Shown here in pieces: positions 12,860 through 34,189 of a DNA stretch of 64,000 bases (positions are counted from its first letter, which is position 1; every line of letters starts with the position of its first letter). The position numbers were made by a program, and so were the translations under genes. Origin of the DNA: Propionibacteriaceae bacterium (GTDB taxonomy: Bacteria > Actinomycetota > Actinomycetes > Propionibacteriales > Propionibacteriaceae); NCBI GenBank assembly GCA_031261485.1, contig JAISJO010000057.1, positions 1 through 64,000 of the forward strand. The letters run 5' to 3'. Under the pieces are notes generated by a model. It worked only from the letters and a program-made list of their open reading frames with translations. It was not told the origin of the DNA and made no database searches.

Positions 12860-13028
12860 TGTACTCTTATCAATAACAACTCAATACAAAACAAACCACG
12901 CGCGTGGCCTCCATCGGTCCTCGGTAGTGGCTTTCGGGTCAAAGTCCCCGCGAGCCTCGATCGAAGACCGGCCCTCAGAGACGGCGTCCTTCGGGATGCA
13001 CGGTGCGCGCATACCCGAAAGGAAAACT
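12860..13028 (+). promoter_or_regulatory. pnp 5' leader
   Basis: These 169 bp hold no gene. The first part is AT-rich (TAACAACTCAATACAAAAC), possibly a promoter; the rest is GC-rich with several short self-complementary stretches. In other bacteria the pnp leader is cut by an RNase and bound by PNPase for autocontrol; whether that holds here cannot be read from the sequence. Confidence 0.3.
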
Positions 13029-30044: not shown

Positions 30045-30350
30045 CTAGGCGGCAATCAGATGTGGTGCCAGGGTCTCGCGTAATGCCTGGGCGAGGATGC
30101 CTTTCACATCAGTCTTCAGACTGGTCACGATGAGGTGTCTTCCTTCGGTGGAGACTGGGATGCCGTCGTCTGCTGCCCGGCGGCACAGCATCTCGTATTC
30201 CTCGTCGGTAAGCCGGACTGACAGGACCGTGCCCTTGTTTGGGCGGGTCACTTTCACATCAGCGGGCAGCGGGTCGTCTTCGTGGGCGATAGTGTGGGCT
30301 ACCTCGTCACGAATCAAGTCGTCAAGCGTTTGAGTCATAGTATCAATCAT
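30045..30350 (-). CDS. BrnA-like antitoxin (ribbon-helix-helix type)
   Basis: This 101-aa acidic-to-basic small protein has a segment VLSVRLTDEEYEMLCRRAAD typical of ribbon-helix-helix DNA-binding antitoxins. Its start (reading ATG at 30350) overlaps the stop of the toxin-like gene by 4 nt. It should bind and neutralise the upstream product and repress the shared promoter at 30647-30663. Toxin-first order is that of BrnTA systems. Confidence 0.65.
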   Translation of the reverse strand: MIDTMTQTLDDLIRDEVAHTIAHEDDPLPADVKVTRPNKGTVLSVRLTDEEYEMLCRRAADDGIPVSTEGRHLIVTSLKTDVKGILAQALRETLAPHLIAA

Positions 30351-30646
30351 CCTTCTTCATAGAGTCGCTGGTCCTTCTTGTTGGACTTCCAGGCGCTGGC
30401 CGCGAACAGAGAATCCTCGGCATGGACTGCGATCACAGTAATGAGAAAGCCAGCACTGTCCGACCATCCGATTAGCCGAAGACTCTTCCCGGACTTTGAG
30501 TTGTAGTCTGGGTCGATTAGGGCGGCGTTCTCATCTTCCCAGGCTTCAACAGCCCAGGGCACCGGAATGTCCGTGTCGCCAGGGTACCGCTGTGAGCGGT
30601 TGTCCGCGTGACCTGTCAATCTCGACCAGTCCGGCGCCTCCATCAT
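30347..30646 (-). CDS. BrnT-like toxin candidate
   Basis: This 99-aa protein ends with a strand-helix pattern like BrnT ribonuclease toxins: SLRLIGWSDSAGFLITVIAV, then FAASAWKSNKKDQRLYEEG, where BrnT has a similar Arg/Lys-rich helix ending in Tyr-Glu-Glu. The N-terminal third is unlike BrnT. ATG 30646 directly abuts a 17-bp palindrome that contains a -10 box, so the gene looks leaderless and self-regulated. Toxicity is inferred from context. Confidence 0.6.
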   Translation of the reverse strand: MMEAPDWSRLTGHADNRSQRYPGDTDIPVPWAVEAWEDENAALIDPDYNSKSGKSLRLIGWSDSAGFLITVIAVHAEDSLFAASAWKSNKKDQRLYEEG

Positions 30647-30813: not shown

Positions 30814-31767
30814 TCAGGTCAGGTCTCCGGTTGGGGTGAATCGTGCGATGACCGCATCACTGGCGCGGTGGGTGGTGGGGAAGTCTCCGTCGGTCGAGTC
30901 GGTGTATCCGGCTGTGATGATGTCGCCGTTGTCTGCGAGTGTCACAGAATTGAAGGAGTCGTCATCGAAGGAGTCGTCGCTGTTCCCGCCGTAGGTGTGG
31001 GCCCAGATGAGGTTGCCGGTTAGGGTGAATCGTGCGATGACCGCATCCCCATTGTCGTCTCCGTGGGTGGTGGGGAAGTCTCCGTCTGTTGAGAAGGTGT
31101 CTCCGACTGTGATGATGTCGCCGTTGCCTGCGACTGCCACAGACGAGAAGGAGTCCCAGGAGTTGCCGCCGTGGGTGTGGGCCCAGAGGAGGTCGCCGGT
31201 TGGCGTGAATCGTGCGATGACCGCATCCCCGGGGCCGTGGGTGGTGGGGAGGTCTCCGTCGGTTGAGCGGGTGTATCCGACTGTGATGATGTCGCCGTTG
31301 TCTGCGACTGTCACAGAGAAGAACAAGTCGTCGTGGTTGCCGCCGTAGGTGTGGGCCCAGATGAGGTCGCCGGTTGGCGTGAATCTTGCGATGACCGCAT
31401 CGTTGTCGCTGTGGGTGGTGGGGAAGTCTCCGTCTGTTGACCAGGTATCTCCGACTGTAATGATGTCGCCGTTGTCTGCGACTGTCACAGACCTGAAGTA
31501 GTCCAAGTCGTTGCCGCCTAGGGTGTGGACGAAGAGAGCAGGCAGTGGCGTTTGGCTTGCCGTGGTCGAGACTTCGCTGCTGTTGGTGGGGGTCGAAAGG
31601 TCGGACAAACCGCTCTCGGGGGGAGTGGCTAGTTCATCATCAGAGCATGCCACAAGCCCGAGCAAGGCAGCGACACAACTGATGATGACGATTGAGTGTT
31701 TGTAGTTTGGTCTCTTCTCCGATATTGCGGCGGCTTGCGCTGCACTGAGGTTGGTCAGGGTAGGCAT
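30814..31767 (-). CDS. Lipoprotein with SBBP-type beta-propeller repeats
   Basis: This 317-aa protein has an N-terminal hydrophobic stretch (HSIVIISCVAALLGLVACSD) ending in a lipobox LVAC, so it is probably a membrane-anchored outside protein. After a Ser/Thr-rich linker there are four full repeats of about 50 residues and the start of a fifth, with the recurring elements TVADNGDIITVG, STDGDFPTTH and AVIARFTPTGDL. Such repeats form beta-propeller blades. The last copy stops right after GDL, in mid-blade, which suggests a trimmed 3' end. RBS GAGGGA precedes the ATG. Confidence 0.75.
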   Translation of the reverse strand: MPTLTNLSAAQAAAISEKRPNYKHSIVIISCVAALLGLVACSDDELATPPESGLSDLSTPTNSSEVSTTASQTPLPALFVHTLGGNDLDYFRSVTVADNGDIITVGDTWSTDGDFPTTHSDNDAVIARFTPTGDLIWAHTYGGNHDDLFFSVTVADNGDIITVGYTRSTDGDLPTTHGPGDAVIARFTPTGDLLWAHTHGGNSWDSFSSVAVAGNGDIITVGDTFSTDGDFPTTHGDDNGDAVIARFTLTGNLIWAHTYGGNSDDSFDDDSFNSVTLADNGDIITAGYTDSTDGDFPTTHRASDAVIARFTPTGDLT

Positions 31768-32595: not shown

Positions 32596-32868
32596 ATGAT
32601 GGACGAGTGTCTGGTGGTGCCGACAACCCAGTCTCGTGCGTCAAGTACCACGGCCCGCAAGCCAATGTCGCTCCGCAGGTTCCAACTTTGGCCTAGTCCG
32701 AGGGTATTGGGGTGTGTGAACGGAGTGGGATCGAAGATGGCCCATTGTCGGCCTCGGATCGGACGTGCATTGGGCCAACTCCGTGAGGGGTCCCTGGAAT
32801 CGTGCGGGTTGGGCCAAAGTTCGCCGAGGTGGCGTCGATTACTGATGTCGTGAATCCAGTCCCCTGCG
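32596..32868 (+). repeat. Structured repeat, copy B
   Basis: Its arms are ACGGAGT (32720-32726), TGGCCCA (32738-32744) and TGGGCCAACTCCGT (32771-32784), with the outer pair AACTTTGGCC (32684-32693) and GGCCAAAGTT (32812-32821). It is nearly identical to copy C over about 230 bp and arranged head to tail with it. Confidence 0.8.
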
Positions 32869-33102
32869 TCAAGTACCACCATGAGCAGGCCAATGTCGCT
32901 CACCTGGTTCCAACTTTGGCCTATGTCGACGGTGTTTTGGGGTGTGTGAACGGAGTGGGATCGAAGATGGCCCATTGTCGGCCTCGGATCGGACGTACAT
33001 TGGGCCAACTCCGTCAGGGGTCCCTGGAATCGTGCGGGTTGGGCCAAAGTTCGCCGAGGTGGCGTCGATTACTGATGTCGTCAATCCAGTCCCCCTGCGT
33101 CA
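32869..33102 (+). repeat. Structured repeat, copy C
   Basis: Its inner stem arms are at 32950-32956, 32968-32974 and 33001-33014; the outer pair is at 32912-32921 and 33042-33051. It follows copy B with a period of 228 bp. No open frame is preserved across all three copies, which argues against coding. Confidence 0.8.
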
Positions 33103-33156
33103 CGTGTTCCGCTCCGCAGGCCGCGCCCGGTGTCGGGGGACCCCCAAACACCGGAC

Positions 33157-33318
33157 GACCGATTGAGTCGAGGAACGAAGCTCGCTTCGATTCCGAGGCG
33201 ATTGAAGGTCGTTGAAGGCGGTATGGCCGCTGAGCACGACCGATTGAGTCGAGGAATGAAGTTTGCTTCGGTTCTGAGGCGATTGAAGGTCGTTGAAGGC
33301 GGCAAAGCCGCCGAACAT
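33157..33318 (+). ncRNA. 81-bp tandem repeat with two conserved hairpins
   Basis: Two copies (33157-33237, 33238-33318) differ at 11 positions. Hairpin 1 (33172-33194 and 33253-33275) has 9 pairs with one bulged base; hairpin 2 (33217-33231 and 33298-33312) has 6 pairs. Four differences lie in stems and all four exchange G-C for G-U; five lie in loops or the bulge; two lie outside. The G-U pairs only form in plus-strand RNA, so a transcript from the plus strand is implied. Confidence 0.5.
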
Positions 33319-33508
33319 GACGCCCCTCGACGCAAGTTGCACGATGGTACAAAAGTCAGCGTCAGAGGATTTTGGGGGTGACACCGAGGCAGGCCGGTTC
33401 CACGACACGGCATTGTGGTCAAGCGATGTGGCGGGCAGTGATAGCTCCGAGGCAGGCCGATTTCCCCGTTGCCGAGATTCTCAAGGACGTGGGACGAACA
33501 GACTCCGA
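33319..33508. other. Spacer before rpe
   Basis: No gene is supported. A 13-bp direct repeat CCGAGGCAGGCCG occurs at 33384-33396 and 33447-33459. Confidence 0.5.
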
Positions 33509-33520: not shown

Positions 33521-34189
33521 GTGAGAATTACACCTAGTATCCTCAACGCTGATTTTGCCCGTTTGGGGGAGGAGATCGCGCGCATCCCGTCTGCCGACGC
33601 CATCCATATTGACGTCATGGACGATCATTTTGTTCCTAACCTGACTCTCGGGTTGCCTGTGGTGGAGTCTTTGCGTCGGGCGACGACGACGATGTTGGAC
33701 ATTCATCTTATGATTGAGGACCCTGACCGTTGGGCGCCAGGGTATGCCGAGGTGGGTGCGGAGTCGGTGACTTTCCATGTGGAGGCGGCTCATGCGCCTG
33801 TGCGGTTGGCGCGGGAATTGCGTCGGCTCGGGGCGCGGGCGGGCGTGGCTCTGAATCCGGCGACTCCAGTATCGGCTGTGGAGAACCTTGTCAGGAATGT
33901 GGACATGGTGCTCATCATGAGTGTGGAGCCGGGGTTTGGTGGGCAGAAGTTTCTCGACCTTGTGCTGCCCAAGGTCGCCGCGGTGCGGAAGATGATTGGT
34001 GACGCGGACATCTGGTTGCAGATGGATGGCGGGGTGTCCTTGGAGACCATTGAGCGGTGCGCCGAGGCTGGGGCAGACACTTTCGTTGCTGGGTCGGCCG
34101 TGTTCCGCGCTGAGGACCCTGACCGGATGGTACAGGCGCTCAAACATTCAGCAATGAACGCAGCCAATGCGAAGGGAACTGTGGCATGA
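33521..34189 (+). CDS. rpe: Ribulose-phosphate 3-epimerase
   Basis: This 222-aa TIM-barrel enzyme interconverts ribulose-5-P and xylulose-5-P in the pentose phosphate path. Motifs are [14 protein letters not shown], the metal-binding [23 protein letters not shown], and [12 protein letters not shown]; the phosphate loop is QMDGGVS followed by AGSAVF. GTG 33521 is set by the -10 box. It overlaps thrC by 4 nt. Confidence 0.96.

Follow-up and report, generated by a model that had tools for sequence, protein, structure and literature searches.

The tandem repeat upstream of rpe

The window, a stretch of 64,000 nucleotides from a Propionibacteriaceae genome, holds a short tandem repeat in a repeat-rich gap about 200 bp upstream of rpe (33521-34189); the frame on the other side of the gap (30814-31767) lies on the opposite strand. 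Tandem Repeats Finder reports a period of 81 at 33155-33311. When 33157-33237 is set against 33238-33318, the copies differ at 11 sites, as the original prediction had counted; 10 of the changes are transitions. The repeat is real, and the extent first proposed for it (33157-33318) missed a few bases: empty sites place the insert between about 33158 and 33316, with 33155-33160 forming part of its outer stem.

Reading from left to right, the left part of a host repeat (33113-33157) ends in the target ACG (33155-33157); in element-free copies of this repeat (L278-L281), AAACACCGGACG is followed directly by ACGCCCCTC or GCGCCCCTC. The plus-strand sequence ACGACC (33155-33160), here called X, forms the 5' strand of the outer stem of unit 1; its first three bases are the target, and it is complementary to X' (GGTCGT, 33207-33212), the 3' strand predicted by the fold, with which it covaries over the 130 matches listed. 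Between them lies the core of hairpin 1 (33161-33205), recognized by pattern and model matches and by covariation and made up of GATTGA, a 3-bp helix, GA, a stem-loop, GA, a 3-bp helix, and GATTGA. A second folded hairpin (GGCGGT ATG GCCGCT) occupies 33217-33231. Unit 2 follows on the same strand with an identical X (33236-33241), a hairpin 1 core found by the same pattern and model matches (33242-33286), and, from the fold, X' (GGTCGT, 33288-33293) and hairpin 2 (GGCGGC AAA GCCGCC, 33298-33312). The ATG at 33317-33319 is an apparent right 3-nt target duplication, ACG with one change, judged from empty sites and from L002, which has ACG on both sides. Beyond it, 33320-33405 (ACGCCCCTCGACG...TGACACCGAGGCAGGCC) completes the host repeat on the right and is common to L002-L007 and to the element-free L278-L281.

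Several other features were observed in the window. Directly upstream of the element is an imperfect tandem repeat (32624-33102; period of about 230, 2.1 copies), pieces of which recur elsewhere in the genome (L003 and L010). The minus-strand frame at 30814-31767 encodes 317 amino acids with a 174-bp (58-residue) internal repeat in 3.7 copies, of the DLIWAHTYGGN...GDIITVG type, and two overlapping short minus-strand frames at 30045-30646 (101 and 99 amino acids) are toxin-antitoxin-like by layout only; none of these has a Pfam match. The only window match to Rfam 15 at gathering score is an Actino-pnp RNA at 12913-12972, away from the element. A permissive Rfam search of 11 loci (E up to 5) gave no match over the element, in keeping with the first impression that it belongs to no known RNA family.

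Under the minimum-energy fold, the differences between the units are distributed as first described. Four lie in stems (33176, 33194, 33222, and 33231), and each exchanges G-C or C-G with G-U or U-G; four lie in loops (33181, 33183, 33224, and 33225) and one in a bulge (33190); 33234 and 33237 fall outside both hairpins, although 33234 is able to enter a 3-bp helix. No predicted pair is broken by the 11 differences. When 11 substitutions of equal transition bias were scattered at random, the fold stayed equally intact in 2.3% of trials, and in 4.5% when the number of stem changes was fixed. The two-copy G-U pattern alone (simulated P of about 0.02 to 0.05) is therefore suggestive, not compelling: transitions make up 10 of the 11 changes, and two of the four in stems have G-U as the starting pair, which no transition can disrupt. 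Plus-strand folds of the units reach -31.5 and -32.6 kcal/mol, versus -22.5 and -22.4 kcal/mol on the minus strand, with z scores of -2.1 and -3.7 versus -1.2 and -2.3.

Copies and conservation of the fold

A search for further copies, as the original prediction had proposed, found the element at 23 places in the window's own genome (2.8 Mb, 112 contigs) with BLAST and in 30 covariance-model matches, 27 of them strong. Among 56 sampled relatives, copies occur in 16 of the 18 genomes of the same genus, usually one to five per genome, with 34 in G017 and 13 in G014, and two genomes from other genera of the family have one weak match each. Farther afield, a pattern scan recovered the expected anatomy, among the matches listed, in Microbacterium, Humibacter, Nesterenkonia, Actinomyces, Leucobacter, Frigoribacterium, Nocardioides, Demequina, and other genera; the listed matches include Propionibacteriaceae metagenome bins that coincide with same-genus genomes (L099, for example, is contig 53 of G016). 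Distribution is patchy: of 395 genomes sampled from the class, 24 have the element, representing 16 of 138 genera, and 371 lack it. Nonactinobacterial pattern matches were rejected as chance, their X/X' pairing being no better than shuffled. The window copy has no match in plasmid or phage collections, and a scan of viral contigs returned three matches only, which are chance-like.

Across copies, the 5' half of hairpin 1 consists of X, GATTGA, a 3-bp helix (GCC/GGC, GGC/GCC, or GGT/ACC), GA, G, and usually one bulged base; then come an apical stem capped by a short loop (frequently CTTG or CTCG), C, GA, the other side of the 3-bp helix, GATTGA, an optional base, and X'. Hairpin 2 is GTTG...GAAC enclosing a short GC-rich stem. 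Core lengths vary by single bases (45, 47, 48, 49, and 50 nt). Facing GATTGA segments could pair as GA, AG, UU, UU, GA, AG, and the GA/GA step could form sheared pairs. None of the 70 diverse copies departs from either GATTGA segment or from the GA/GA step, partly by construction because the collecting pattern required those bases for many of them; in an alignment collected by BLAST similarity (A1), the same columns are invariant or nearly so.

Pairing in A1 (26 copies) extends to 90.8% of cells, with 11 of 18 pairs changed on both sides, versus 28 to 46% of cells in slid controls. The larger alignment, A2 (70 copies), has 93.9% of inner-stem cells paired and 12 of 14 pairs changed on both sides, versus 30 to 47% paired when slid, and a covariation score of 0.568 versus at most 0.117. 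Because rows of A2 had been selected for X/X' complementarity, the outer stem was assessed on the 130 actinobacterial pattern matches listed, in which 5.08 of 6 positions are Watson-Crick versus 3.48 (standard deviation, 0.07) when X' is dealt randomly; with one row per distinct X, the values are 4.87 and 3.12. Among 117 distinct inner stems, G-T combinations number 45 and A-C combinations 8 (both scored alike), and in the outer stem they number 24 and 21, respectively, with no G-T excess, all of these counts, like those of pairing, ignoring the relatedness of the copies. From the inner-stem imbalance, the plus-strand fold is therefore the one that matters, as G-U pairing between the two window units had first hinted. 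One pair illustrates the pattern: most copies have G-C, unit 2 has G-U, L007 has A-U, and L003 has A-C. Further copies with stem-breaking changes had been named as evidence against selection on the fold; single pairs are indeed broken in a few (L003 and L004), but about 94% of cells pair over the 70 copies. At the level of the family, these comparisons argue strongly that the fold is kept by selection. Thus, a two-copy hint of G-U exchanges led to a real covarying family, in which the two hairpins per unit that were originally proposed are supported and to which a third, outer stem shared with the insertion-site flank, missing from that proposal, must be added.

Gene 3' ends and insertion sites

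The wider copies have a strong association with tRNA 3' ends that the original prediction did not contain. Outside the window's genome, 26 of 114 distinct elements among the matches listed begin 1 to 5 nt downstream of a tRNA or tmRNA 3' end, with a spacing of exactly 5 nt in 19. All 26 share the strand of the gene, with none opposite, and two further listed elements have a tRNA T-loop motif. The chance expectation for such adjacency is about 0.01, as estimated for some 50 tRNA genes in 3 Mb. The genes used are tRNAs for Leu, His, Ala, Val, Ile, Lys, Glu, Met, Thr, and Arg, as well as tmRNA, and the carrier tRNA differs between species within one genus. In Microbacterium and Frigoribacterium, the element begins at the stop codon of a long frame, which in L189 is rpoC; at rpoC and in L012, a separate terminator lies downstream of the element. 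The element itself was rejected as an intrinsic terminator, no terminator-like site being present at it by the criterion of a GC-rich hairpin plus a T run. Since copies sit between tRNA, tmRNA, or rpoC genes and terminators, transcription of the element is plausible. Most copies in the window's genome, including that of the window, are away from tRNA genes.

Filled and empty sites could be compared in three contexts. At rpoC, empty sites (L248-L250) read ACAACTGA, a short spacer, and a terminator, and the filled site (L189) reads ACAACTGA, TTGAGGCGAG...GTCGCGAC, ACAACTGA, spacer, and terminator. The window's host repeat, when empty, reads AAACACCGG-ACG-ACGCCCCTC or AAACACCGG-ACG-GCGCCCCTC (L278, L280, and L281; L279 has two changes), and in filled copies the element stands between ACG and ACG (ATG in the window). 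In a second repeat of the same genome, the empty arms are TCATTCTGCGCGAAGTCGCAGAATC and the filled form is AGTCGCA-CAAGCGATTGAG...GCCGAA-CAGAATC. The insert is precise in all three contexts, with apparent duplications of 8, 3, and 2 nt at rpoC, the host repeat, and the second repeat, respectively. Flanks at tRNA-Leu(TAA) were too diverged to align filled with empty sites. Two interspersed repeats thus serve as landing sites in the window's genome, TCATTCTGCGCGAAGTCGCAGAATC and the host repeat GGCCGCGCCCGGTGTCGGGGGACCCCCAAACACCGG...TGACACCGAGGCAGGCC (L013-L020, L046, L047, and L278-L281).

Judged from element-free host repeats in the same genome, element-free rpoC ends in relatives, and the patchy distribution, the element is mobile. 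Rather than a feature of this one locus, it is an interspersed repeat that has precise empty sites elsewhere. The difference between filled and empty rpoC ends could also reflect loss of an old element via recombination between direct repeats. L049 and L050 share nearly the same core and X', and X is mismatched in L050, as would be the case if the donor provides X' and the target contributes part of X.

A candidate mobile repeat and its alternatives

We consider it probable that the window holds two tandem units, each of about 81 nt, of a nonautonomous mobile structured repeat that is present in many actinobacteria and is inserted at gene 3' ends by an enzyme acting in trans. Each unit would fold on the plus strand into two hairpins, with X where the element meets its insertion site, the target contributing part of it, and X' internal to the element. 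Duplication of X after hairpin 2 would allow X' to pair with either copy; in L189, which has X at both ends, RNAfold predicts pairing of X' with one X in the optimum structure and with the other in the centroid. The substrate would be the folded plus strand, as either readthrough RNA of the upstream gene or single-stranded DNA, which we infer the enzyme inserts in sense at gene 3' ends, preferentially directly after tRNA and tmRNA genes. The window's genome would then represent a secondary expansion of the family inside other intergenic repeats. Several points weigh against this reading: the length of the duplication differs between kinds of site (8, 3, and 2 nt), the outer stem lacks a G-T excess, no mobilizing enzyme was found, the diverged flanks at tRNA-Leu(TAA) gave no empty-site comparison, most copies in the window's genome are not next to tRNA genes, and the rpoC difference could reflect loss. 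A more specific version, which we hold to be speculative and unlikely, makes X' a guide that pairs with the target at the insertion point, such that complementarity decides the sites (tRNA 3' ends, the rpoC stop, and similar AC-rich sequences), and the element would move as RNA or single-stranded DNA. If so, copies with mismatched X and X' (L050 and L065) would be recent or off-target moves.

The main rival, compatible with mobility, is that the element is first of all an RNA domain serving the host in tRNA trailers and 3' untranslated regions, acting in 3'-end processing, as a barrier to exonucleases, or as a source of trailer-derived small RNA, bound by protein at its GAUUGA loops and spreading only secondarily. 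Sense orientation with a fixed 5-nt spacing after tRNA and tmRNA genes, location between gene end and terminator at rpoC and L012, invariant internal loops, and the plus-strand G-T excess would all suit such a role, but the carrier tRNA varies between species of one genus, 371 of the 395 genomes sampled from the class lack the element, and there are precise insertions in repeats that are not next to tRNA genes; as the primary explanation, we regard it as unlikely. Considerably less probable is that there is no selection on the fold and that the matching changes arise from template-switch repair (quasipalindrome correction) together with gene conversion among copies. Copies do exchange or share sequence, because unit 2 of the window and L007 have two changes in common, and an outer stem that is almost exclusively Watson-Crick and without G-T excess would suit this view. 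Such repair would, however, remove the mismatches of the GATTGA/GATTGA and GA/GA loops, yet 70 copies keep these unchanged, and a strand-symmetric process would not be expected to yield the inner-stem G-T excess.

That the repeat encodes a small RNA specific to the window region seems very improbable; both units fold stably, but about 27 copies lie elsewhere in the genome, the surrounding repeat exists without the element, and no promoter- or terminator-like site above chance was found near it. We give almost no credence to a coding repeat of 27 residues: an 83-codon plus-strand frame spans both units, but core length varies by single bases, the frame is not preserved in other copies, copies are located behind tRNA genes, and there is no Pfam match.

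Among known systems, the element resembles REP-type and MITE-type repeats. REP/BIME elements, which are associated with RAYT (Y1) transposases, are short palindromic repeats, dispersed and tandem, extragenic, and sometimes provide the stop codon of the upstream gene, in an account that does not mention actinobacteria (Di Nocera et al. 2013, PMC3733652). The element is likewise short, palindromic, dispersed and tandem, extragenic, and sometimes placed at a stop codon; unlike REP/BIME elements, it has two hairpins, conserved internal loops, precise sites at tRNA 3' ends, and an outer stem that varies by site and matches the insertion flank. It fails the REP criteria that were tested. The GTAG/CGTC foot of REP elements is not conserved, GTAG preceding hairpin 2 in some copies, with GAAG in the window's copies and GACGAG or GCAG in most others, and no Y1 transposase (PF01797) was matched in the window's genome, although control genomes were matched; no mobilizing enzyme was found. 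Nonautonomy, precise insertion, and direct repeats at the ends in the three filled and empty contexts are MITE-like. No element-wide terminal inverted repeat was seen and none belonging to a known transposase was recognized, and the element appears to be selected for a folded single strand.

Mycobacterial MIRUs, also actinobacterial, form intergenic tandem arrays whose units are of similar length and can overlap a TGA stop codon; compared by description, the element differs in being noncoding, with strong covariation and a frame that varies. Trailer RNAs of tRNAs, among them the 3'ETS of enterobacterial leuZ, are encoded directly behind a tRNA at a single locus, and the element, although also directly behind tRNAs, is a mobile repeat. 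Integron attC sites act as a folded single strand with conserved unpaired features at gene 3' ends, with the arrangement RYYYAAC...GTTRRRY; in the element, the order is reversed, GTT lying 5' of AAC. Open-access papers, to which our literature search was limited, yielded no description of the family, which is apparently undescribed. Small structured repeats are widespread among bacteria, but the combination of presence in many actinobacterial genera, exact tRNA and tmRNA 3' ends, noncanonical loops, and a site-matched outer stem matches nothing in Rfam or in those papers. It raises the questions of which enzyme mobilizes the element, how tRNA ends are recognized, and whether insertion alters tRNA 3' processing or rpoC mRNA.

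Some copies depart from the typical anatomy. A lengthened apical loop gives element cores of up to about 94 nt in G107, G137, and L061 (from G013). A Nesterenkonia subtype (L087, L093, L101, L113, L121, L127, and others) has longer cores of 52 to 53 nt and weaker X/X' pairing (4.1 of 6 versus 3.4 shuffled). Behind the tRNA-Leu (TAA) of G008, L202 has a similar hairpin architecture with different internal loops (GTAGGAACGAAGG...TTTGACGTAGTGACGA) and a tail of GTTGACGAACGAG...GAGGAACAC; to judge from this hairpin, the GATTGA type may be only part of the family.
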